Positions 21,017 to 35,184 of a stretch of 64,000 nucleotides of DNA are shown here, one piece after another. The first letter of the stretch is position 1; every line of letters begins with the position of its first letter. This stretch comes from Ancylomarina subtilis. GTDB taxonomy: Bacteria > Bacteroidota > Bacteroidia > Bacteroidales > Marinifilaceae. A program made the translations under genes and the position numbers. The stretch spans positions 1,057,781 to 1,121,780 of the forward strand of contig NZ_SHKN01000001.1 in the NCBI RefSeq assembly GCF_004217115.1, written 5' to 3'. The notes beneath the pieces are model-generated. The model searched no databases. It was not told the origin of the DNA and was given only the letters and a program-made list of their open reading frames with translations.

Positions 21017-22258
21017 CTAGAAAGTATATTTAAAATGTAGCTGAAAGCGAGTACTTCCGACTTCACTTGAATCATTAACTGTGCCATCCACCTGAGTTGT
21101 TCCATAAGCTGCAGATGTATATAAAATTTGTGTTCCAATCATGAAATGACCTGAGTACACCTCTACACGAGGTCCGAATTGATACACATAGTCGATATCT
21201 GAACCACGGCTATACAGCCCCACAAAACCATCGGCATCTGTTGCCAGATTATCATCTGCACCCAAATTCTTTGTGTAACCCGCAAACAAACCATAACGCA
21301 CATTTCCTGTAGTGGTGTATACATCCGACCAAACAGAACTGGTCTTTATATTGGTGTATTCGTAATCGCCATTCGCTTTCACATTCTTGACGCCATATCC
21401 CCCAATCATTACGAAGTTGTACATATTCTGTCCGTAAATGGTTTGCAAATTCCAGGCAATTTTATCTGTTTTTAAAGACATCCAGGCATTCATTTGATAG
21501 CTTGACAAGAGTTCATCTGTTTTTACTCCCATTGCGTTTACAAGCATGGGCTTCAAAAACTTATAGCCTGCTGTTGCTCCCAAACTAAATCCCTCTGCTA
21601 AATCGTACTTAACTTGAGCTGAAATTTCAGGAATACTGGCTTGTTGTGCATACTTTACATTAGCACCTTCGGGGCCCGTGCTCTTAAAATCCATCTCTGA
21701 TAAAACAGCCAACATCGCATAGCCTTTGTTACTTAGCTTTCGAGTGTATCGAAACTGAGGGGCTCTTCCCAAAACATTGAAAGGTAAACCACCTCCCCAA
21801 TGCAAAACATGAGGATAACATGAGGTTACAAACATGGGATGCCAATATTTTCCAACCAATAGCTCATCTTTCTCCCAATTTAATTTCACAAAGGCATGTC
21901 GTAAACGAAACAAACCAATTTTATCATTCGATGTTCCGACAAAATCTCCCTGTATGCACGCAGACCCTTTTGCTCCGAAAGCTTCGAAACCCGAAATACC
22001 AACATTCAATCGGGAATGGATGCTGGTCATATACAACTGTGACCGATCATTTAGATCTGTCCCATTAATGTCTGCCGACTTGGAGGCGGGATACAATAAA
22101 ACATCACCCTCACGAGAATTGACTGTTTTTCTTGTGTCCAATATGGCTTCAGCCGACACAAAACCGCTTAATTTTACTTTTATCTCTTCTTTCTTTTGCG
22201 CTAAGCCTAAAATTGGAACCAGAGCAAAAAATAGCAACACAATTTTTTTCATGATCAT
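21017..22258 (-). CDS. Outer-membrane beta-barrel porin-like protein
   Basis: This 413-residue protein has a signal peptide cleaved after LGLAQ (about residue 21) and alternating aromatic/hydrophobic strands ending in a final strand STRFQLHFKYTF with terminal phenylalanine, the signal for outer-membrane barrel assembly. It follows the D-lactate dehydrogenase gene in the same direction, 219 bp downstream, and may supply the substrate channel for that locus; this is inference. A second ATG at 22252 is a possible start. A plain family name is not certain. Confidence 0.7.
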   Translation of the reverse strand: MIMKKIVLLFFALVPILGLAQKKEEIKVKLSGFVSAEAILDTRKTVNSREGDVLLYPASKSADINGTDLNDRSQLYMTSIHSRLNVGISGFEAFGAKGSACIQGDFVGTSNDKIGLFRLRHAFVKLNWEKDELLVGKYWHPMFVTSCYPHVLHWGGGLPFNVLGRAPQFRYTRKLSNKGYAMLAVLSEMDFKSTGPEGANVKYAQQASIPEISAQVKYDLAEGFSLGATAGYKFLKPMLVNAMGVKTDELLSSYQMNAWMSLKTDKIAWNLQTIYGQNMYNFVMIGGYGVKNVKANGDYEYTNIKTSSVWSDVYTTTGNVRYGLFAGYTKNLGADDNLATDADGFVGLYSRGSDIDYVYQFGPRVEVYSGHFMIGTQILYTSAAYGTTQVDGTVNDSSEVGSTRFQLHFKYTF

Positions 22259-22477: not shown

Positions 22478-25330
22478 TTAAACTATTTCTTCAGCAAAAC
22501 ATTGTGCTTGAGTCACCCGATCAACCAAATAGATAATTGACTGATACGGAACACCGCCATTATGACTCAAGCCAATTTCACAAGTTCTGCTGTTGGAATA
22601 TCCGGCAACAACCTTTCCCTCGTTTAATACGGGACGTAACTTGCGAAGAGCATATTGATTAATCTCCGGAAAATTGAAGCCTCTGTCTCCGGCAAAACCA
22701 CAACAACCGACTTCGCCAGGCATCACCACTTGCTGAGCACAGGCTTCGGCAACAGCTCTTAATTGGGGCGTTAATCCCATTTTTGTTGTCGTGCAGGTTG
22801 CATGAATGGCAACCACCTCGTTCACTTTTGTAAAGGTCAATCGATCCATTAAAAACTCATAAATGAATTCAACCGGTTCGTAGAGCTTTAATTTAGCATC
22901 CATCACACGACGCATGCGATACAAACAAGGAGATGTATCACAAAGAATGGGGTATTTTCCACCCTCAGATGCTTTGTTCAGAGCGGCCTCAAGTTCAGAA
23001 GATTTTTGATCAGCCTGTTTATTGAAGCCTTTACTCTCCCAGGGTGTACCACAACATAAAGAGCTCATCTTCTCAGGAAAAATCACCTCAAAACCCGCTT
23101 TCTCCAACAAATTTTGTGTTACAATATGCAAGGGTTGTTTGTAAGGATCCCCCTTTGCAGGTCCCATGGTTTGAGCAATACAAGAAGGGAAATACACCAC
23201 TTTTAAGGGGTTTTCTTTATTCACCGGATGCGGTTTAGGCGCATTAGCCCCCTTAGGCATTGCCGGCGTCCAGAGTGGAATCGTCTTACCACTCAGGGTT
23301 CTGAACCCGCCAGCCACAGCTCCCAATAGAGTCGACCCCATGACAGTATGGACACCATTCACAAATTTCAAACTACCGCGAATGACGGGTCCCAATTTAT
23401 GGAAATTGTCAGCCACCCACTGACTCTGTTTTTGTGGTCGATCTCCGGCCACATTTAATGATCTCAGATATTTGATGTACTTACCTGTATCGATACCAAC
23501 GGGACATGAAGTAGCACATAAACCATCACCGGCACAGGTTTGTTCACCTAAATAAACAAAGCCTTTTCTCAATGCTTCCAAGCGCTCAGCATCTTCACCT
23601 GTCATTTCCAATCGCCTGATTTCGCGTTGCACCACAGTACGCTGACGAGCTGAAAGTGAATAACCCGCCGTTAAACAATTCACCTCACAAAAACCACATT
23701 CAATACAGGTATCCACAATTTCATGAACGGGTGCTAATGTCTTAAAATTCTTAATGTAACAATCAGGATCATCGTTAATAATCACACCCGGGTTTAATAA
23801 TTTTTTGGGATCGAAAAGTTGTTTGATCTCTTTCATCAATTGATAAGCCTCTTCTCCCCATTCGTGTTTGACAAAGGGTGCCATATTTCGTCCTGTGCCA
23901 TGCTCAGCCTTCAACGAACCGTCATATTTATCAACAACCAGATGATCAACCTCAGCCATAAACCTTTTATATTGTTCGAGCTCTTCAGGTTTATCAAAAT
24001 TCTGATTGAATATAAAATGAAAGTTCCCTTCCAGAGCATGCCCGTAAATCACACCATCCTTATAACCGTGTTTTGCAATCAGATCCTGCAAGTCTGAAGT
24101 GGCTTGTGGTAAATCTTTCAGGTGAAAAGCAACATCTTCGATAATACATGTGGTCCCTTTTTCGCGTAAACCGCCAACGGCCGGGAATACCCCTTTTCGG
24201 ATATTCCAATATTTTGAGTATTCTTCAACTTTATCGGTAAATTCAATAGGACGAACGGTTTCGAAACCCTTTAAAAGCGATTTAATTTCTTTGATATTCG
24301 CATAGAGTTCCCCTTTAGAACTAGCCAAAGTCTCAACAAGAATCGCTGTTACGCCATCCGGAAAATCTTTAATAAATGGAGGAATACCATCTGCATTTTC
24401 AACCGATCGCAAAGCGACTCTATCAAGCATCTCAGCTCCGTGCACAGGTCCAAGATTCATACTCAATACCGATTCACATGCGCTTACGATATCATGAAAA
24501 TAAATCATGGCACTGGCTTTGAATTTTGGATTGACAACCGTCTTCATAGTCAACTCAGACATAAAAGCCAAGGTCCCTTCTGAGCCTACCATCAAATTCA
24601 CAATGATCTGAAACGGATCCGTATAGTCAATAAAAGGATTGATACTCAAGCCTGTGGTATTCTTAATGCTGTACTTGTAACGAATCCGGTCAGCCAAGGT
24701 CTGATTGGCACGCACCCGATCGCGCATCTCTTCAATCTTATGAATAAAAGAAGCATGCGTTTTCATAAAATTCTTTTTGCTTTCATAACTGCCCGTGTCA
24801 AGAACGGTTCCGTCAGCAAAAATCAACCGAGCTGAAAGAATTGTTTTGTACGAATTCTCGTGTGTCCCACAATTCATACCCGAAGCATTGTTCATCACAA
24901 TTCCCCCAATCATGGCGGAATTGATGGAGGCCGGATCGGGCCCTAACTTACGACCATAAGGAGCCAGAATCTGATTCACCCGTGCCCCGACAATACCGGG
25001 TTGCATTCGAATGTGTTCTCCATCTTTAAACACCTCATAATCTTCCCAGTTTTTACCGGCAACAATGAGTATAGAGTCGGTAATTGCCTGCCCAGCCAAA
25101 CTCGTTCCTGCAGCCCTAAACGTTACAGGCAATTCATACTTATTGGCTAAGAGCAAGGCCTTTTGAACTTCAGATTCATTCTTAGCCCGTACAATAATCT
25201 GAGGAATTAAGCGATAAAAACCGGCATCGGTTCCGTAAGCTAAATTTCTAATTTCATCGGTATATAAACGCGAAGCCTCAATCGTTGTTTTTATTTCATC
25301 GTAAAACTTCTTATAATTTCCTTTCAACAT
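22478..25330 (-). CDS. FAD-linked and Fe-S-containing D-lactate dehydrogenase (GlcD-GlcF-like fusion)
   Basis: This 950-residue protein joins three parts. Residues about 40-210 are a PCMH-type FAD-binding domain (VTFRAAGTSLAGQAITD; GPDPASINSAMIGG). Residues about 210-530 are the FAD-oxidase C-terminal domain. The last third has two Fe-S motifs (CIECGFCEVNC; CAGDGLCATSCPVG) and two cysteine-rich CCG modules (CCGTPWESKG; CCGFAGDRGF) that bind a heterodisulfide-reductase-type cluster. This class oxidises D-lactate or a related 2-hydroxy acid and feeds electrons to the quinone pool. It is placed after the lactate permease gene with 94 bp between and no clear terminator, so it probably belongs to the same operon. 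Substrate D-lactate is inferred from the neighbours. Confidence 0.88.
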   Translation of the reverse strand: MLKGNYKKFYDEIKTTIEASRLYTDEIRNLAYGTDAGFYRLIPQIIVRAKNESEVQKALLLANKYELPVTFRAAGTSLAGQAITDSILIVAGKNWEDYEVFKDGEHIRMQPGIVGARVNQILAPYGRKLGPDPASINSAMIGGIVMNNASGMNCGTHENSYKTILSARLIFADGTVLDTGSYESKKNFMKTHASFIHKIEEMRDRVRANQTLADRIRYKYSIKNTTGLSINPFIDYTDPFQIIVNLMVGSEGTLAFMSELTMKTVVNPKFKASAMIYFHDIVSACESVLSMNLGPVHGAEMLDRVALRSVENADGIPPFIKDFPDGVTAILVETLASSKGELYANIKEIKSLLKGFETVRPIEFTDKVEEYSKYWNIRKGVFPAVGGLREKGTTCIIEDVAFHLKDLPQATSDLQDLIAKHGYKDGVIYGHALEGNFHFIFNQNFDKPEELEQYKRFMAEVDHLVVDKYDGSLKAEHGTGRNMAPFVKHEWGEEAYQLMKEIKQLFDPKKLLNPGVIINDDPDCYIKNFKTLAPVHEIVDTCIECGFCEVNCLTAGYSLSARQRTVVQREIRRLEMTGEDAERLEALRKGFVYLGEQTCAGDGLCATSCPVGIDTGKYIKYLRSLNVAGDRPQKQSQWVADNFHKLGPVIRGSLKFVNGVHTVMGSTLLGAVAGGFRTLSGKTIPLWTPAMPKGANAPKPHPVNKENPLKVVYFPSCIAQTMGPAKGDPYKQPLHIVTQNLLEKAGFEVIFPEKMSSLCCGTPWESKGFNKQADQKSSELEAALNKASEGGKYPILCDTSPCLYRMRRVMDAKLKLYEPVEFIYEFLMDRLTFTKVNEVVAIHATCTTTKMGLTPQLRAVAEACAQQVVMPGEVGCCGFAGDRGFNFPEINQYALRKLRPVLNEGKVVAGYSNSRTCEIGLSHNGGVPYQSIIYLVDRVTQAQCFAEEIV

Positions 25331-25424: not shown

Positions 25425-27083
25425 TTACAATGGCATTGGGTCAACGCCCAAACTGATCAAAACCACTATAATTAACATGATGAGAAGATAATAGATGAAG
25501 GCAGGAATTGCATTCCGACGTATAATACTTCCCTCGGCTCCGACACAACCCACAGTAGCACAAACAGCAACCACATTATTAATACAGATCATGTTTCCAA
25601 GTGCAGCACCACTGGTTTGTGCCGCTACAATTAAAACCTCCGGAATCTGAAGAATAGAAGCTGTTTCGAATTGCAAGGATGCAAACAGTAAGTTGGATAC
25701 AGTTGCAGAACCCGACATAAAAGAACCCAAAACACCAACGATGGGCGAAATCACCGGGTAAGCGGCTCCAGCCAAATCAGCAATCGAATTTGCCATAACC
25801 GTCAACATACTCTCCAGTCCAGCACCATTGGTTCCCGACTTCAACATCAACTGAACCATGGCAACTCCGGCAAGCAAAGCAATTGCAGCACCATTGATTT
25901 GTTTAAATGTGGTTTTCCACGAATCAACCACCTCTTTGGTCTTCATACGGTAGATTACATTCGTAATTAAGGCAACCAAAATAAAAGGGATCGTACCAGG
26001 CAGATAGGCCCATTTCAGCACATAATTAAGCCCTTCAATCCCCAATACATTCGATAAGCTAAGGGTTTGTGAAGCCAACAAACTTTTTAATCCCAGGGAT
26101 GGAATTCGTGTCACAACCAAAATGATGGCAATCATTGCATAGGGCAACCAGGCTTTTAAAAGACTCATCTTAGTTTGGCTTGGCTCCTGAATAGTTTCGT
26201 TGGACATCCATGAAGACTCCCATTCTGATTTGGCAGGGAAATCCCATTTCTTTTTAGGCACGAGAAAGCCTCTTTTAGCGGCAAAAATAACAATACCTAA
26301 ACCGATGAATCCTCCTAAAAGGGAAGGTAAATCAGGACCTAAAGTTGCAGCAATCAAAACGTAAGGAATAACAAAAGCTAAACCTGCAAACAAAGCAAAT
26401 GGCGCCGCCGCTAAAGCGGGTTTGATTGATTTATCCTTTCCGAAGAATCGTGTCAGAATCATCAAGCCCAACAGAGGAATAAAAATCCCTACCATAGCAT
26501 TGGGTATGGCAATCCACTTGGTCAGCATCAACTTAAATCCTTCAACGTTTGCGCCAACACCCGCAAGATTCTGCTCTAAGGTCACCATGGCTCCTCCGCT
26601 GATGGGTGTCCCCACAGCACCAAATGGAACTGGCACCGAATTGTAGATTAAAGCCACCATAGCAGCAGCCAAAGGAGGAAAACCCAAACCAACTAAAAGA
26701 GGGCCTGCCAAAGCTGCCGGCGTTCCAAATCCCGCGGCACCTTCGATAAAGGCTCCAAACATAAAGCCAATGATAATGGCCTGAATACGCCTATCTGTGG
26801 TTATGCCATTGAAGCCATTATTGATGGCTGCCATCGCTCCCGATATCTTCATGGTATTCAAAATCAGGATTGCCCCGAATATGATAATAAGGATATCAAA
26901 GGCCTTTAAAAATCCGAAGACAGAATATCCTAAAATATGGTGCAAATCTATTTTCCAAACACCAAAAGCGATCGTTATTGCAAGTAATAAGGCTAAGGGT
27001 AATGCTTTTTTTGCCCCCCAGTTAAAGCCAACCATCAGAATGATGGTCAATAAAATAGGGGAAAATGCTAATAATGCGTTCAT
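25425..27083 (-). CDS. lldP: L-lactate permease family transporter
   Basis: This 552-residue protein has about 13 membrane segments and family-typical blocks: [27 protein letters not shown] (about 113-139), [14 protein letters not shown] and [16 protein letters not shown] near the C-terminus. The family imports lactate or glycolate with protons. Its place between D-lactate dehydrogenase and the Lut genes fits lactate uptake for both enzymes. ATG start. Confidence 0.92.
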
Positions 27084-27104: not shown

Positions 27105-27293
27105 TTAGTTACTACAGGCTTTATTCATAGCCATTTGATTTGATTGATGATCCTTATCTACAGTTTGATCATCATCCTCCTGAAGGTATTTGAGTTTAAA
27201 CATGGGGTTCATAATGCCATCCAAGGCAACAAGTTTGCGTCTCAAATTCAATAGGTTTTCATTCGTTTCAATCTTATTTACATTAAATTCCAT
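27105..27293 (-). CDS. Small hypothetical protein between the permease and lutBA
   Basis: This frame gives a 62-residue hydrophilic protein starting MEFNVNKIETNENLL at the ATG at 27293. It has no signal peptide or known domain, and a polar Asp/Gln-rich C-terminal half. It fits neatly between the two flanking operon genes (21 bp and 23 bp). I do not recognise it. It may be a real small protein or a chance frame. Confidence 0.45.
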   Translation of the reverse strand: MEFNVNKIETNENLLNLRRKLVALDGIMNPMFKLKYLQEDDDQTVDKDHQSNQMAMNKACSN

Positions 27294-27316: not shown

Positions 27317-29464
27317 TTATTCGACAACGACCAGATGATTTTCGATAAATTCGGTAAGGTGCATCACCTTTACTGCTTTCTTTTGGTGCATAAGACCACC
27401 ATTTATCTGCATGACACAACCCGGGCAATCGGTTACAAGAATCTCAGCGTTGGTCGCTTCGATATTTTCAATTTTCTTGTTCAGAATTCCATTCGAAATA
27501 CTGGAGAAATCCAAAGAGTAGGTTCCGCCAAACCCGCAACACACATTACTGTCGGTAAGGGGAATAAATTGTTTGCCAAGTACCGATGAAAGAAAAGCTT
27601 CGGCAGAATAGCTCAGAGATCTGGAATCGTGACAAGGAGTATGATAAGTCACCCTTTTGTTTCCGAGCACCTTGAATTGTATCCCCTGATCTTCCAAAAA
27701 CTTCCCTACAGGTGTCACCATCTGTCCCAATTGAGAAGCCTTTTTATAACGATCAGGATCAGCTTTTGTAAAATCCAAAAACTCATGTTTAATCGCTCCG
27801 CCACATGTTGGACAAAGAACCAGCAAGGCTTCGTAGTCACCAGCATCATTAAGCTTATCAAGGGTATTAAAAATCATTGTTTTGGCATTGTCAGGATCCC
27901 CCGAGGCTATTGCAGGAATACCACAACAGGCTGCCGTTTTAGGAATATCAACCTGAATACCACTTTTCTGAAGCAACTTAACCATTGCCAATCCCATTTC
28001 AGGATAAAAATATTCGATGGCACAGCCGGGATAAAAGAAGACTTTACGTTTTGATGAAAACTGATCGTGACCGTCCTTAAAGAAACGTTTGCTAAAGGTT
28101 TTGGAAGCCAATGCAGGAAATTTCCTAAAATCCATTTCCTTAGGCAACATAGGAACTGTTTTGATTATTTTTTCCTGATTTAACTTGTTGGTTGAGGTTA
28201 AAGGAAACTGGAAATTAGCACCCAGGCTTAAAAGCGATTTCATTCGCTTAGGTTTTGCAACCACCGATTTAAACACCTTCTTTTTTACAGGATTGATACC
28301 ATACTTCTTACCGACAACCAGTTTCAGATCTGAGATCAAAGTTTGAAGATCGATACCTGATGGACAATTGAAAGAACAAGCCCGGCAACCAATACACATT
28401 TTAAGAATGTCTTTGGCAGCCTCATCGCCCTGATAAAGTGCTGTCAGAATCAAGCCAATAGAACCGATATAGCGGTCGCCATAAACATGTCCCCCAACCA
28501 TTTCGTAGGCAGGACAAATATTGGCGCAACTGCCACAACGAATACATTTTAATGCTTCTTTAAATTTTGGATGTTCCAAAAAGGCCAATCGACCGTTATC
28601 AAGAAACACATAATGCGTTTCTTTAATTCCATCCGCATTTTTATGTGATGGCGTTCTTCCCTTAATCCAGGTTGTATAAGAGGTAATAATCTGTCCGGTT
28701 GCACTTTTAGGCAGAACACGAACAATATCCAGGGCCTGTCCGAAATCATCGCAAAGCTTTTCGTAACCGACCAAAACAATATGCACAGGAGGCACTGTAG
28801 ATGACAAGCGTGCATTGCCTTCATTGGTAACCAAACCAATGGTTCCTGTGCTGGCAACAGCAACATTAGCACCTGTCATGCCAATCCCCGCTTTAAAATA
28901 GTATTCCCGAAGGAATCGGCGCGCGATTTCAACCATGGCTTTTATATCGTCAGGATCAACTTCTTCCCCAGTATAATCTGAAAAGATCTTAGCAACCTGC
29001 TGACGCGTTTTATGAATGGCAGGCATCACCATATGGGATGGATGCTCACTGGCAATTTGCAAAATCCATTCACCTAAATCGGTTTCAATAGGACTCAAGC
29101 CTTCTTTTTCCAAGTACTGGTTCAATTGAATCTCCTCAGAGGTCATGGATTTACTCTTCACCATATATTTGGCTCCATGAGACTTCATCACATCGGCAAT
29201 ATATCTGCAGGCATCATCACCGGTTTTTGCCTGAAAGACTTTGCACCCATGCTTCTCAACGTTTTCTTTAAACTGATTGAATTGTTGCATGACTTTATTT
29301 AAATCACGATCCTTTAAATCATGAACTCTGGTTCGTAAGGCTTCAAAATCCAATCCTTTATAGGCATTCTCTTTTGATGCCTTATAGGCTGTAGCAAATC
29401 CCTTAAGATTTTGATACAAAACTTTATCGTTTAATTTTTCGTCTATTTTTGTATGTATTGTCAT
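27317..29464 (-). CDS. LutB-LutA fusion, Fe-S protein for L-lactate oxidation
   Basis: This 715-residue protein starts with a LUD domain (VKSKSMTSEEI, about 92-102; GANVAVASTGTIGLVTNEGN, about 198-217), then a ferredoxin-type pair (CIRCGSCANICP; CIGCRACSFNCPSG), which together equal LutB/YkgF. From about residue 450 a second part has FYPGCAIEYFYP, CCGIPAIASGD, CPTCGGAI, HTPCHDSRSL and CCGFGGTYSL, equal to LutA/YkgE. In Bacillus the two are separate subunits of the L-lactate to pyruvate system; here they are one chain. It is followed by the small gene and lldP, and preceded by lutC by only 9 bp. Confidence 0.9.
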   Translation of the reverse strand: MTIHTKIDEKLNDKVLYQNLKGFATAYKASKENAYKGLDFEALRTRVHDLKDRDLNKVMQQFNQFKENVEKHGCKVFQAKTGDDACRYIADVMKSHGAKYMVKSKSMTSEEIQLNQYLEKEGLSPIETDLGEWILQIASEHPSHMVMPAIHKTRQQVAKIFSDYTGEEVDPDDIKAMVEIARRFLREYYFKAGIGMTGANVAVASTGTIGLVTNEGNARLSSTVPPVHIVLVGYEKLCDDFGQALDIVRVLPKSATGQIITSYTTWIKGRTPSHKNADGIKETHYVFLDNGRLAFLEHPKFKEALKCIRCGSCANICPAYEMVGGHVYGDRYIGSIGLILTALYQGDEAAKDILKMCIGCRACSFNCPSGIDLQTLISDLKLVVGKKYGINPVKKKVFKSVVAKPKRMKSLLSLGANFQFPLTSTNKLNQEKIIKTVPMLPKEMDFRKFPALASKTFSKRFFKDGHDQFSSKRKVFFYPGCAIEYFYPEMGLAMVKLLQKSGIQVDIPKTAACCGIPAIASGDPDNAKTMIFNTLDKLNDAGDYEALLVLCPTCGGAIKHEFLDFTKADPDRYKKASQLGQMVTPVGKFLEDQGIQFKVLGNKRVTYHTPCHDSRSLSYSAEAFLSSVLGKQFIPLTDSNVCCGFGGTYSLDFSSISNGILNKKIENIEATNAEILVTDCPGCVMQINGGLMHQKKAVKVMHLTEFIENHLVVVE

Positions 29465-29473
29465 GGCTTCGGC

Positions 29474-29956
29474 TTATAAATCGTTCAAAATAATCACTGT
29501 CATTTCCTTGGGACCGTGTACCCCAACAGTCAATACCCTCTCGATATCTGCTGTTCGGCTGGCTCCTGTAATAAAAGCGACATAGCCACCACTCCCTGAT
29601 GTCCTTTCTTCGAGAAAATCGGTCACATCATGCATACTTTCCACCAGCTTGCTTAAAGGGAGAATCACATCCAATTTTTCAGCCAGACAGCTTGCCAATC
29701 TTAAATTCTCGTTGCAACTATCAATAACAACCGAGCCTGTTTCACCAATCGCATAATCTGCCTCGATTAATGCTCTTCCGATACCCGCTTCACCCGTTTG
29801 CTTATCAAGAGATAAATTCAGGCTGGGCATATGGATATATTCATAATCTTCCCTTTTAAAATCATTCTGGAAATCTAGCGTTTTCACCAAACGGTTTTCA
29901 TTCCCAACAAGAGTCGATTTTTCCAAAAACTGTTCTAGTAATTTCATAACTTTCAT
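29474..29956 (-). CDS. lutC: LutC-like LUD-domain protein
   Basis: This protein of about 160 residues is a single LUD domain with the family marks AIGETGSVVIDS and GASRTADIERVLTVGVHGP. LutC is the third subunit of the L-lactate oxidation complex. The frame reaches to a GTG at 30025, but the sigma-54 promoter at 30001-30017 predicts transcription from about 29990, so the start is the ATG at 29956 (or 29947). It is the first gene of the operon lutC-lutBA-small gene-lldP-dehydrogenase. Confidence 0.85.
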   Translation of the reverse strand: MKVMKLLEQFLEKSTLVGNENRLVKTLDFQNDFKREDYEYIHMPSLNLSLDKQTGEAGIGRALIEADYAIGETGSVVIDSCNENLRLASCLAEKLDVILPLSKLVESMHDVTDFLEERTSGSGGYVAFITGASRTADIERVLTVGVHGPKEMTVIILNDL

Positions 29957-30000: not shown

Positions 30001-30017
30001 ACCAAGAGGAGTGCCAA
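30001..30017 (-). promoter_or_regulatory. Sigma-54 promoter of the lutC operon
   Basis: The minus strand reads TTGGCACTCCTCTTGGT. This is TGGCA, six bases, TTGG, against the sigma-54 consensus TGGCA-N6-TTGC; only the last base differs. It lies about 45 bp before the chosen lutC start, with three enhancer-like sites 115-180 bp further upstream. Confidence 0.75.
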
Positions 30018-30129
30018 AAAACCACTTCAATTGTTATATAGAATCTTTCTAAGACTTTTAATACTGTATGACAGCACTTTAGGCAACGGAAAGGTTTTCA
30101 GAAATGTCCATTTCAATCGTTTTCGCTAC

Positions 30130-30195
30130 TGTTCCATTCTGAACACTAACAAAATACGCACTGTGCCATTCTGAACAGTTGGCTAATTTTGAACA
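30130..30195. promoter_or_regulatory. Three enhancer-like 16-bp inverted repeats upstream of lutC
   Basis: TGTTCCATTCTGAACA at 30130-30145 is a near-perfect inverted repeat. TGTGCCATTCTGAACA at 30162-30177 is the second copy, and 30180-30195 keeps only the right half-site (TGAACA). Spacing of starts is 32 and 18 bp. The same motif with nearly the same spacing stands before the second LUD gene. Probable binding sites of the NtrC-type regulator encoded at 31219-32664. Confidence 0.75.
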
Positions 30196-30331
30196 GGAAA
30201 TAGGTGGGGTTTAAAACCTCAGAAGAGAACTTAAAATCATTAACCCGAAATCGACAAATAAGGGTTCTCTCTATTAAAAATGGAAATCGAAATGGAATCA
30301 TCTGAGTATCCACAATCAATTTGCAGAATAA

Positions 30332-30359
30332 AAAAAACCTCTCTATAGAGAGGTTTTTT
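30332..30359. terminator. Perfectly symmetric bidirectional terminator
   Basis: AAAAAACCTCTCTA and TAGAGAGGTTTTTT are exact inverse complements. It sits 24 bp after the stop of the second LUD gene on the minus strand and isolates that gene from the lutC operon. Confidence 0.9.
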
Positions 30360-30383
30360 GAAACACATCCTTGTTTAAAACCC

Positions 30384-30899
30384 TTAAAGATCTTCAATGA
30401 TATAAACGATGGTTTGAAGCTTATTTGAAGAGAAACACAGTTCATTATTATAGGATGTGGCAGTATGGCTGGCAATACCCCGAAACAGTTCTACGGCTGG
30501 CCTTCCATTCACAAGTTCGTGTTCTGTCATAGAATAAAGAATTTTACTGGACGGAAGAATGATATGCAAGGATTCAGCCAGAAGCAAGTTTATTAAAACA
30601 TCGGAATCTTCTGTATCGACAAGCAATTTCCCGGAATCAGCAATACCAAAATCAGCCTCCAGGATCGCATTCTTAGAATCCCCTCTGTTTAAAGATGCTT
30701 TATTGAGCTCAAAACTTTTTAACCGAATAAATTCAAACTCAACATTGGGTTTGCTTGCCGCTTCAAGAAACAAGTTACGATCAACTTTTAAGGAATCATG
30801 GCCTAAGCTTTTTGAGTTTAGCAGAAATAAATCCAAAAGACTTCCATTTTGATTACCGCAAACATTTTTTTTCAATTGTGTATTCGTACTGACATCCAT
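30384..30899 (-). CDS. Divergent LUD-domain (LutC-like) protein with its own sigma-54 promoter
   Basis: This 171-residue protein aligns along its length with the neighbouring LutC: ILEADFGIADSGKLLVDTEDSD corresponds to the LutC EADYAIGETGSVVIDS block, and the C-terminus ends IVYIIEDL where LutC ends VIILNDL. The otherwise conserved RTADIE...HGP motif is replaced by HTATSYNNE and following residues, so it may have lost the usual contacts of LutC. A regulatory or alternative subunit role is inference. ATG start 27 nt from the predicted transcription start; a terminator follows directly. Confidence 0.7.
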   Translation of the reverse strand: MDVSTNTQLKKNVCGNQNGSLLDLFLLNSKSLGHDSLKVDRNLFLEAASKPNVEFEFIRLKSFELNKASLNRGDSKNAILEADFGIADSGKLLVDTEDSDVLINLLLAESLHIILPSSKILYSMTEHELVNGRPAVELFRGIASHTATSYNNELCFSSNKLQTIVYIIEDL

Positions 30900-30936
30900 A
30901 TCCGTTAAATTTAAGTAAGACTTCGCTTATGAGGAG

Positions 30937-30952
30937 GCAAAAGAAATGCCAA
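30937..30952 (-). promoter_or_regulatory. Sigma-54 promoter of the divergent LUD gene
   Basis: The minus strand reads TTGGCATTTCTTTTGC, i.e. TGGCA, six bases, TTGC, a complete match to the conserved -24 and -12 positions. The gene start lies 38 bp downstream. Confidence 0.8.
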
Positions 30953-31050
30953 AGATCTAATTGAAAGCTCTAATGAACATAGCAAATCACTACAGTCTAA
31001 TTACCTGACACTTACAAAACATGGAGCTGTCGTAAAGTAGAAAATCCCAA

Positions 31051-31114
31051 TGTTCAATTCTGCACAGCCCAACAAATCCCCTTTCGAAAATGAACAGGTG
31101 TTCCAAATTGCACA
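31051..31114. promoter_or_regulatory. Three enhancer-like 16-bp inverted repeats upstream of the divergent LUD gene
   Basis: TGTTCAATTCTGCACA (31051-31066) and TGTTCCAAATTGCACA (31099-31114) are good copies, and 31081-31096 keeps the TGAACA half. Starts are 30 and 18 bp apart, almost the same as in the lutC cluster. The nearest site is about 100 bp upstream of the sigma-54 promoter, a normal enhancer distance. Confidence 0.75.
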
Positions 31115-31118
31115 CAAT

Positions 31119-31162
31119 AAAAGCCAACCCCACATGTACTTAAACATATCGGATTGGCTTTT
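31119..31162 (-). terminator. Terminator of the sigma-54 activator gene
   Basis: AAAAGCCAA (31119-31127) pairs with TTGGCTTTT (31154-31162), with further pairs inside the loop. It lies about 57 bp past the regulator stop. Confidence 0.6.
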
Positions 31163-31218
31163 ATATAAATAGGTTGATCGTGTTCTTCGATGAGAATATT
31201 AAAGGTACATAAAATGAT

Positions 31219-32664
31219 CTAAAGCTTATTCATCCTGCTACGAAGTGCACTTCTGGTAATGCATAAATAATCAGCCGTTTTAGATTTGTTGTTATCAAAC
31301 TTCTTCAAGGCTTTCCGAACGATTTCCAACTCCAACTGCTCAATATCCAATTCGTTATCAGGTAAAACAATTCTTCCGGGAACCAAAACATGTTCTAAAC
31401 TCTCAAAGTCATTATCATCAGCATGCAAAAAGCGCAAATGTTCTGGTTTTAGTTCCAGATCGTTATAAAGCAGCGTTGCTCTCTCTATAGAATTCTTAAG
31501 CTCTCTGATATTTCCAGGCCAATCGTATTCCTGTAACATCTTTTTTGCATCCTTACTGATGAAACGGAAGCGACGCCCACGTTTTTTTGAATACTGATCC
31601 AAGAAGACTTGCGAAAAGGATAAAATGGCCTCTTTGCGTTCTCTTAAGGGCGGAATATAAAGTCTGCCTGTATTTAAGCGATAATAAAGATCACTTCGGA
31701 ATGTTTTTTCAGCCACCATCTGTTTCAGATTTCTATTGGTGGCAAATATCACCCTTACATCCAAACTTATGGCCTTGTTGCCTCCCACACGATACATCTC
31801 CTTTTGCTGTAAGACACGCAACAATTTGGGCTGCATATCCAAAGGCATCTCTCCTATCTCATCCAAAAACAGAGTTCCGCCTTGTGCCAATTCCAGTTTA
31901 CCGAGCTTTCCTTCTTTCCGTGCGCCGGTAAAGGCCCCCGTTTCGTATCCAAACAGTTCACTTTCGAACAGTGTTGGCGATATGGCTGAACAATTGATCG
32001 AAATAAAAGGCTGAAGAATATCGCTTTCCTGTCCGAAATGAACCAAACGCGCCATAACTTCTTTCCCTGTACCTGTTTCTCCTTCAATCAAAACAGGAAC
32101 TGTTCTGTCCTCATGAAACTGTTCCGCCATCTTCACCACACTACGCATGGCATCAGAAAAGACCCCCACTTTACCAACACTGGTGATATCGCGAATTGTG
32201 GTTTCGTAATATTTCACGCGTTCTCCTTCTTCACTTTTCACATTCGAAAGATCCGTGTTGGCCTGCTTATTTAAATCCGATTTTTCTGCTTTTAATTGAA
32301 TGCTCTCAACAACCCGCTCAATAAGGATGGCTAATTCCTCAACATTAACAGGCTTAAGCAGGTAATCGTAAGCATTGCTACGCAAAGCCTCAATCGAGGT
32401 TTCCAGATCACCAAACCCCGTCATAATCACCACTTCGATTGCCGAGCCATTGGGGAGTTGTTTAATTCTTTTCAGAAGATCCAAACCGGAAATACCAGGC
32501 ATTCTCATATCAGATATAACCATCTGGAAATTATCCTCTTTTAAAGCAAGCAAAGCCTCTTCCCCATTGTGGCAAAGTTTTGTTTTGTAACCCAGCTGCT
32601 CGTCAATAAATTCTGCAACAGCAGATCCACTGGATTTATCATCATCAACAATAAGAATATTCAT
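31219..32664 (-). CDS. NtrC-family sigma-54-dependent response regulator
   Basis: This 481-residue protein has a receiver domain (phosphoacceptor D52 in VISDMRMPG, K104 in LKPV), an AAA+ domain with Walker A GETGTGKE (195-202) and the sigma-54 contact loop GAFTGA (243-248), and a C-terminal Fis-type helix-turn-helix (NKSKTADYLCITRSALRSRM). It should bind enhancer sites and open sigma-54 promoters once phosphorylated by the kinase encoded just upstream. The two sigma-54 promoters and the repeated 16-bp sites next door make lutC and the divergent LUD gene its evident targets. The gene itself shows no sigma-54 motif in front. Confidence 0.92.
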   Translation of the reverse strand: MNILIVDDDKSSGSAVAEFIDEQLGYKTKLCHNGEEALLALKEDNFQMVISDMRMPGISGLDLLKRIKQLPNGSAIEVVIMTGFGDLETSIEALRSNAYDYLLKPVNVEELAILIERVVESIQLKAEKSDLNKQANTDLSNVKSEEGERVKYYETTIRDITSVGKVGVFSDAMRSVVKMAEQFHEDRTVPVLIEGETGTGKEVMARLVHFGQESDILQPFISINCSAISPTLFESELFGYETGAFTGARKEGKLGKLELAQGGTLFLDEIGEMPLDMQPKLLRVLQQKEMYRVGGNKAISLDVRVIFATNRNLKQMVAEKTFRSDLYYRLNTGRLYIPPLRERKEAILSFSQVFLDQYSKKRGRRFRFISKDAKKMLQEYDWPGNIRELKNSIERATLLYNDLELKPEHLRFLHADDNDFESLEHVLVPGRIVLPDNELDIEQLELEIVRKALKKFDNNKSKTADYLCITRSALRSRMNKL

Positions 32665-32784: not shown

Positions 32785-35184
32785 CTATTTTCGATTCAGC
32801 AATTTAAATCTTAAAATAAAACTAGCCCCTCCATCTTCATTATTGTAATCGGATATCTCTGCTTGAAACCGATCGATAAACAATTTGACTATTGCCATTC
32901 CCAGACCACTCCCCTTCCCGGATTCTTTGGTCGTAAATAAGGGATCGTATATTTTCTCACGAATTGCATGATCGATACCTGTCCCGTTATCATGCACCTC
33001 CAATACCCCATGGGTATCATCCTGAAGGACAACAAGTCTGATTTTTTTATCCTTCTTCTGAACCTGATCCAAAGATTGAATGGCATTCACGATTAAATTC
33101 ACAACAACTTGTTCAAACTGCACATAATTGGCATTAACCAAAATGGAACTTTGGGGCAATTCATCAACCAATTCGATACTGTGATCACAAACCTGACGTT
33201 TTACCAGAGACAAGGCTCTTTTAACCCCCTCAACCATATCGATGGTATTTTCCTCAACCACATTGGGTTTGTCATAAAACGTTCGCATGTGCTTGATAAT
33301 TGCATCAATTCGTGAGGTTTCTTCCGAAATTGTGTTGATTTTCCGAACAAACATCTCAGGTAACTGACCCGGATTTCTCTTCTGCCAATACAGGACACTG
33401 TCTGCCGATATTTTAATGGCATTCAGGGGTTGATTGATTTCATGGGTAATTCCTGCAGACAAGACCCCAACTGAAGCCAGAAGAGACGACTCCTCCAACA
33501 TTCGCATGGCTTCAACATTCTTCTGCTCAGCCTCAAGTCTGGCATTCATCAGTGAATTGCGCTCCCAGGCATTTGCTATCATGTTCACCGTCGAAAAGAA
33601 AACACCAATTTCGTCACGGGTCCATTTGTGAACCTCATTCTGTGAGAAACCCATCAAACCCAAAACTTCATTCCCAACCACAACCGGTAAAAGCACTACG
33701 GCTTTGATGTTTCTTTTTCTGTAATAAGCCTGTTCCTTTTCATTTAAATTTGATAAATCCGTTGAAACAACACTCAGATTCATCTTCACACGCTTAATTG
33801 CATGTTCTATTTCAGAAAAATAAAACCGATCAACATCCTTAATACGATCGCCTTTGGTTAAAACCCGACTCTTGATTTTCACAGCGGCATCTGATGAGTC
33901 GTTAAAAGAATAAAGACTGACACGAGCGACATTCATTTCATCCGTCATCAATTTCAAAACATCATCCAAAACGTTTTTAAAATCCTCGGACGCATTTAAT
34001 AAACGTCCAATTTTAGCCATTAAACGCTCGTGCATGACTGATATCTTCAATCGGCCCTGCTCTCTCAACAAGGCTTTTTCTGCCTTAATTCTTCGTAAGA
34101 TCGCTTGTGACAGAACCAAAATTATGGCTGTTGCAATAAGGAGAATCCCCAAAACAATCTGAATCCATTCCTTATTATCACTGTAAAAAGATTGAGGTTT
34201 ATTAAGGATATGTGTCTCTGAAGGAAGTATCGCTTCGTTTATTCCAAATCGCTTGAGTTCTTTATAATTCACCACATATTCATCAAGTGGTTTTCGATAA
34301 ATCGGGATAGAATCAACAGGAGTCCCCTCAATGATACTGACAACCATTTGGGCCGCCATTTGCCCATGCAATTTACCACTGACCACCTTTCCCCCAAAAA
34401 CCCCATCTGAAATAAAGAAAGCCCATGCAATGTATACAGGCACTTTGCTATGAGGGACTATCAGATCTAAATTATCCTGAAAACTAATAAACTTTCCATT
34501 TTTGTCTTTGTTGAAAGTCAACAGCAAAATTGAGGTATCCCCCTGTACTTTATCAACCTTATCAACCAGCTCGTTTAAACTTTCATCCTCGTGATAAATA
34601 AAATTCAGTCTACCCTTATATTTCCCTTCAAGATCACGCATCAAAAGTTTATTCAACTTAGCAGTGGTTGTTTTATCATCGTTGATCACAAAAAGATGCT
34701 TCGTATTGGGTCGTGTGCTTAAAACCAGATCGACAGTCCCTTCCAAATCCAAATCTTCAGCAATACCGGTAATGTTTTTCATCCCGGCAATCATCTCATC
34801 TGCAAAATGATTGATTCCACAAAAGATGATGGGCGTGTTTTGAAAATATTTTTCCCGATGATCTTTGACAAAGGATAAAGCATTATTATCTGAAACAATA
34901 ATCGCATCGTATTTTTCCTTTAAAAGTTTCAGATCATACAGTTCAGTGATCTTATTAAGGTATTCGAGGGAAGGGTTTCGTTTGGTATCCAGATATTCGT
35001 AATCCAATTCAAACTGATTGCCCAAAGAATCCAAAACGGTCTTAATTCCCGAATTGACATTATCGGTCCACCGCAAACCCTGGTGGTAAGAATGCAGCAC
35101 CAATATCTTTTTTCTAAGAGATGAAAACGATTGAAGAGATATAAATAAAAAGCAAGCTAAAGCAATGTAGCGTATCAACTTCAT
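32785..35184 (-). CDS. Sensor histidine kinase with ABC-substrate-binding-type periplasmic sensor
   Basis: This 799-residue protein has a signal/anchor (1-22), a periplasmic domain of the ABC_sub_bind type (about 28-325, starting KKILVLHSYHQGLRW), a membrane helix (about 340-362), a GAF-like cytoplasmic domain (about 385-540), a dimerisation/phosphoacceptor helix (SAGITHEINQPLNAIK) and an ATPase domain (N box NLIVNAIQSL; GTGIDHAI; GSGLGMAIV). The H in HEINQ is autophosphorylated and serves the response regulator downstream (120-bp gap). The ligand is probably a small metabolite such as lactate, judged from the neighbours. Confidence 0.9.
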   Translation of the reverse strand: MKLIRYIALACFLFISLQSFSSLRKKILVLHSYHQGLRWTDNVNSGIKTVLDSLGNQFELDYEYLDTKRNPSLEYLNKITELYDLKLLKEKYDAIIVSDNNALSFVKDHREKYFQNTPIIFCGINHFADEMIAGMKNITGIAEDLDLEGTVDLVLSTRPNTKHLFVINDDKTTTAKLNKLLMRDLEGKYKGRLNFIYHEDESLNELVDKVDKVQGDTSILLLTFNKDKNGKFISFQDNLDLIVPHSKVPVYIAWAFFISDGVFGGKVVSGKLHGQMAAQMVVSIIEGTPVDSIPIYRKPLDEYVVNYKELKRFGINEAILPSETHILNKPQSFYSDNKEWIQIVLGILLIATAIILVLSQAILRRIKAEKALLREQGRLKISVMHERLMAKIGRLLNASEDFKNVLDDVLKLMTDEMNVARVSLYSFNDSSDAAVKIKSRVLTKGDRIKDVDRFYFSEIEHAIKRVKMNLSVVSTDLSNLNEKEQAYYRKRNIKAVVLLPVVVGNEVLGLMGFSQNEVHKWTRDEIGVFFSTVNMIANAWERNSLMNARLEAEQKNVEAMRMLEESSLLASVGVLSAGITHEINQPLNAIKISADSVLYWQKRNPGQLPEMFVRKINTISEETSRIDAIIKHMRTFYDKPNVVEENTIDMVEGVKRALSLVKRQVCDHSIELVDELPQSSILVNANYVQFEQVVVNLIVNAIQSLDQVQKKDKKIRLVVLQDDTHGVLEVHDNGTGIDHAIREKIYDPLFTTKESGKGSGLGMAIVKLFIDRFQAEISDYNNEDGGASFILRFKLLNRK

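Follow-up and report, generated by a model that had tools for sequence, protein, structure and literature searches.

The closest described relative of the locus analysed here is LurSR, the lactate two-component system of Desulfovibrio (PMC6456213). In both cases an NtrC-type sigma-54 regulator is encoded near the lactate operon, three 16-bp sites lie upstream of a sigma-54 promoter, and a permease and a lactate dehydrogenase are found among the targets. MifSR, which acts on alpha-ketoglutarate (PMC4482717), likewise combines a two-component system with sigma-54-type regulation for organic-acid use. According to a 2015 study, no organism other than Desulfovibrio had been described as transcribing its lactate and pyruvate genes through sigma-54 (PMC4641369), and our literature search found no case of this in Bacteroidota.

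The window, a 64-kb stretch of Ancylomarina subtilis DNA (64,000 nucleotides), very probably carries a regulon for lactate utilisation that depends on sigma-54 and is controlled by a two-component system, with regulator binding and signal predicted. Its genes, sites, promoters and their conservation are evident at the level of sequence. The initial annotation had joined regulator, repeats, promoters and lactate genes into one regulatory layout, and phylogenetic footprinting backed every structural part of it across species and genera. The kinase, regulator, LUD2, lutC, lutAB, a 62-codon ORF, lldP, an FAD/Fe-S oxidase and a putative porin are all encoded on the minus strand (Table 1).

Table 1. 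Features of the predicted lactate regulon, in window coordinates, with the basis of each assignment.
Feature	Position	Strand	Basis or remark
Putative outer-membrane porin	21017-22258	minus	comes after lldP/dld at several of the ortholog loci
FAD-linked oxidase with Fe-S and CCG domains, D-lactate-dehydrogenase-like (dld)	22478-25330	minus	domain/family search
Lactate permease LctP/LldP (lldP)	25425-27083	minus	domain/family search
Small ORF of 62 codons, conserved, between lutAB and lldP	27105-27293	minus	tblastn
lutAB, LutB-LutA fusion, L-lactate dehydrogenase (quinone) large subunit LdhH	27317-29464	minus	NCBIfam NF045670, 890.9 bits (cut-off 800)
lutC (LUD domain), first gene of the operon	29474-29956	minus	Pfam LUD_dom, 83.7 bits
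lutC operon promoter, sigma-54-type -24/-12, TGGCACTCCTCTTGGT	30001-30016	minus	conserved TTGG at -12
7-1-7 dyad TTAGAAAGATTCTAT (also written TTAGAAnGATTCTA), between lutC enhancers and promoter	30038-30052	minus	conserved in 15 lutC promoters
CGAAAACGATTGAA (CGAAAwCGwTTkAA), abutting the promoter-proximal lutC enhancer site	30112-30125	minus	conserved
lutC-promoter-nearest enhancer site, TGTTCCATTCTGAACA	30130-30145	n/a	exact motif match
lutC triplet, middle site	30162-30177	n/a	1 mismatch
lutC triplet, distal site, weaker, 18 bp from middle site	30180-30195	n/a	3 mismatches; spacing conserved
Intrinsic-terminator-like hairpin with T-run, after LUD2 and before lutC enhancers	30332-30359	minus	consensus match
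LUD2, single-gene unit	30384-30899	minus	alignment to LutC
LUD2 promoter, sigma-54-type -24/-12, TGGCATTTCTTTTGC	30937-30951	minus	exact TGGCA-N6-TTGC
LUD2-promoter-nearest enhancer site, TGTTCAATTCTGCACA	31051-31066	n/a	exact motif match
LUD2 triplet, middle site, weak	31081-31096	n/a	4 mismatches; same spacing conserved
LUD2 triplet, distal site	31099-31114	n/a	1 mismatch
NtrC-type response regulator: receiver, AAA+ with GAFTGA, Fis HTH	31219-32664	minus	Pfam, all three domains
Sensor histidine kinase: extracytoplasmic ABC_sub_bind, TM, GAF, HisKA, HATPase	32785-35184	minus	Pfam

The small ORF had tblastn matches in the corresponding position of 11 further loci from Marinifilaceae genera and was seen in one more; it had no Pfam match, and no Pfam family was found for the putative porin. 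The initial annotation had also described a second LUD gene forming its own unit. The promoter and triplet of that unit were present, but the gene itself, LUD2, is probably a degenerate, co-regulated LutC paralogue and not a second LUD enzyme unit. Its identity to LutC was 31% over about 100 residues. When a LUD domain was defined by a Pfam match together with the C-terminal LutC stretch GASRTADIE...GVHGP (GGYVAFITGASRTADIERVLTVGVHGPKEM), the window LUD2 did not qualify: it gave no Pfam match, and the stretch was absent from all 13 aligned LUD2 rows. The Labilibaculum ortholog (L065) just passed the Pfam LUD cut-off, with 23.5 against 22.6 bits.

Both promoters had been said to fit TGGCA-N6-TTGC. 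This held exactly for LUD2, the only such match in the window, where the -24 TGGCA and -12 TTGC stand at the set spacing; the lutC promoter carries TTGG at -12, one mismatch from the pattern. The published consensus is tGGcacg / tTGCt (PMC4641369). The deviation is conserved, with TTGG in 14 of 15 aligned lutC promoters and TTGA in the remaining one, while GG and TTG are invariant among them. The LUD2 element lies about 52 bp before LUD2 in 19 of 19 genomes, with TTGC or TTGT at -12. Genome-wide, TTGGCAY-N5-TTGS occurred 16 times against 7 for a control pattern, and a single sigma-54 match therefore says little; two such matches beside triplets are not chance. The genome holds one copy of rpoN and nine strong sigma-54 activators, this regulator and eight others.

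All six 16-bp inverted repeats, three per promoter, were found where they had been reported, with start spacings of 32/18 bp (lutC) and 30/18 bp (LUD2) and lying 100-179 bp ahead of the -24 elements (100-180 bp in the initial annotation). The motif was read as TGTTC-N6-GAACA. The genome-wide tests were pattern searches, and the search proposed earlier for the 16-bp motif placed both exact matches in the 4.0-Mb genome at this locus. Allowing one mismatch or fewer, 4 of 9 places were here, and 4 of the 20 TGTKC-N6-GMACA palindromes in the genome fell inside this 985-bp stretch. Further regulon members did not emerge, as no other motif pair within 60 bp was present among the genome matches listed (two mismatches or fewer). 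One solitary palindrome close to a different activator (C7:13714) was rejected, since it sits between unrelated genes. As a separate observation, an isolated, weak arrangement of two motif-like sites with TGGCA-N6-TAGC was seen in the gap that separates a permease-like gene from the gene of another sigma-54 activator (L008 1346-1516).

Over 582 kb, both strands were scanned without bias for three sites spaced 18 + 30-32 bp, with a threshold of 24. Scores of at least 24 were obtained only at promoters of lutC, LUD2 and lldP units, site-shifted readings included, and no high-scoring triplet was found in the reversed control sequence. The triplets of two loci (L078 and L079) scored 23, under the threshold. 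The motif was partly taken from the consensus of the initial annotation, so that the scan tests placement and not motif discovery; this choice is addressed by the reversed control and by matrices trained across genera. With a matrix from Labilibaculum and Marinifilum promoters (no Ancylomarina), the six window sites ranked 1-5 and 8 in 64 kb. With one from distant lldP promoters only, four of them ranked 1-4 and the two weak sites 15 and 124. Nine lldP homologues from genomes in which no close regulator relative was found carried no triplet, their best scores being 19-20 as against 23-27; these permeases were more distant, at 44-51% identity. They took the place of a control with lutAB from genomes lacking the regulator, as no lutAB turned up elsewhere in the order sample.

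When 84,980 species were queried with three aligned kinases, 26 kinase orthologs were recovered, in Ancylomarina, Labilibaculum, Marinifilum, Draconibacterium, Carboxylicivirga, Balneicella and other Bacteroidota. In all 26 of these other genomes the kinase gene is followed by that of the regulator, and lactate genes adjoin or lie near in most. Triplets of this geometry (18 + 30-32 bp) are found again in the 26 other genomes that carry the pair, a few of them just below threshold. A triplet with TGGCA-N6-TTGN precedes LUD2 in 19 genomes, the window included, and stands before lutC in 15, directly before lldP in 7 and before the small ORF-lldP pair in 3.

In the 19 LUD2 genomes the sites lie at about -215, -197 and -166 and the sigma-54 element at about -52 from LUD2, with a middle site that is barely recognisable in L062, and the 15 lutC promoters show 18/31-32. 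In Draconibacterium-like genomes and Balneicella, lldP heads the unit and the triplet lies before it, spaced 18/32 in Balneicella. The order of sites in the Draconibacterium-like loci (L080 3777, L081-L084) was 31/18 and not 18/31, at equal overall length. In three genomes a lutC-type promoter stands directly before small ORF-lldP, with lutC-lutAB elsewhere (L062/L174) or not found (L207, L208).

Other DNA elements were also seen around lutC and LUD2. CGAAAwCGwTTkAA and a TGAAAACCTTT block are kept across genera. In the genome the pattern of the 7-1-7 dyad showed no enrichment over control; a Fur/PerR box was rejected as its identity on this count, and a paper on iron gave no motif. Matches to the terminator-like consensus numbered 2, as compared to 1.3 in shuffles. 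A possible second hairpin between the regulator and LUD2, at about 31119-31163, was noted by eye only.

An NtrC-type regulator and its kinase had been placed beside the LUD genes, and Pfam domains and key motifs agree with this. The regulator has the domains, the GAFTGA motif and the aspartate of a sigma-54-dependent NtrC-type protein, with phospho-acceptor D52, Walker A at 195 and GAFTGA at 243, all conserved in orthologs. In the kinase the H box is kept, a transmembrane stretch lies near residue 340, and residues 22-338 form the extracytoplasmic domain, whose structure was predicted with a pLDDT of 92. The nearest folds in Foldseek were the ABC_sub_bind (PF04392) solute-binding proteins 3lft and CD0873 (E about 1e-12, TM-score 0.64-0.69, identity 16-17%), and the family was also matched by HMM. 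In contrast to these proteins, the domain is here fused to a histidine kinase. The TrpX-like 3lft binds L-Trp, and the ligand of CD0873 is an aromatic amino acid.

Kinases with the same sensor domain, together with LuxR-type regulators, adjoin a CstA-family carrier in 8 loci (e.g., L086 9923-16053; Marinifilaceae), most of which carry a porin about 64% identical to the window porin (42% in one). Such kinases also occur in unrelated settings in other phyla. Because of these two kinds of setting, the sensor domain as a family is not lactate-specific. The carrier and porin neighbourhood fits a C3-acid signal without proving it. No triplet scoring 24 or more was found on the plus strand at the non-orthologous ABC_sub_bind kinase loci.

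In the predicted mechanism, the membrane kinase would detect lactate, or a C3 acid related to it, on the outer side of the inner membrane through its solute-binding-protein-like domain and phosphorylate the adjacent regulator. Regulator dimers would then bind the three TGTTC-N6-GAACA-like sites upstream of each promoter, where three dimers could seed one hexamer, and the GAFTGA AAA+ domain, with DNA looping, would remodel sigma-54 polymerase at both promoters. Promoter 1 would drive lutC-lutAB-small ORF-lldP-dld, perhaps with the porin, and promoter 2 the LutC-like LUD2 gene. A more specific version is offered tentatively and is somewhat doubtful: the kinase would be a periplasmic receptor for lactate or a C3 acid built on the ABC_sub_bind fold, and the three-dimer array of about 49 bp a rigid template for seeding one regulator hexamer, its order (18/31 or 31/18) switched between clades while its length is held. 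We know of no case in which this fold binds lactate or C3 acids.

Lactate is our best guess for the signal, judged from gene content, because the targets include an L-lactate dehydrogenase (LdhH), a lactate permease and a D-lactate-dehydrogenase-like protein, and because two system-bearing strains grow on lactate. These are Labilibaculum manganireducens 59.10-2M and L. filiforme 59.16B (PMC5760507), both among the genomes with the system. The same regulon and mechanism could also serve a kinase that senses another acid or condition, such as pyruvate, glycolate or redox state, the lactate genes then being one of several outputs or its only known one. CstA-family proteins have a link to pyruvate uptake, and the related kinases beside such carriers, most with a related porin, speak for this reading, as do the aromatic amino acid ligands of the nearest solved folds; against it, the constant partners of the kinase-regulator orthologs are a lactate permease and lactate dehydrogenases, and we consider it unlikely, while still giving it some weight.

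Far less room is left for accounts that change the DNA-level reading. That another transcription factor binds the repeats, the NtrC-type regulator controlling something else, is very improbable despite the eight other strong activators in the genome: the triplets track the kinase-regulator pair through changes of gene order and appear nowhere else in the 582 kb, the lldP homologues without a close regulator relative carry none, and sigma-54 promoters require such an activator. It is more improbable still that the promoters are of sigma-70 type and the TGGCA-N6-TTGN matches coincidental. Single matches are indeed common in the genome and the lutC -12 is non-canonical, but the elements keep a near-fixed distance after the triplet, their GG and TTG do not vary in the aligned lutC promoters, and a sigma-70 scan gave no more matches than shuffles. 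The regulon led by the NtrC-type regulator provides a specific prediction of regulator, sites and promoters for marine Bacteroidota, cultured lactate users included, and its fixed three-site enhancer suits tests of sigma-54 activator assembly.

When compared with known systems, MifSR differs in substrate, targets and phylum. LurSR comes from a phylum other than Bacteroidota, and its sites, compared by eye as published, are GTCCGC..CAGAC-like (GTCCGCTTTTTCAGAC-like) and spaced about 39 and 100 bp, in contrast to TGTTC-N6-GAACA at 18 + 30-32 bp in the window. LurS is described as a kinase of the hybrid type, in which three PAS domains are combined with a C-terminal receiver, whereas the window kinase is arranged as ABC_sub_bind-GAF-HisKA-HATPase with no receiver. 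Neither the LurR motif nor the LurS architecture is thus present here. Because sensor and motif differ, the window system is not filed as LurSR; by analogy it is regarded as its functional counterpart.
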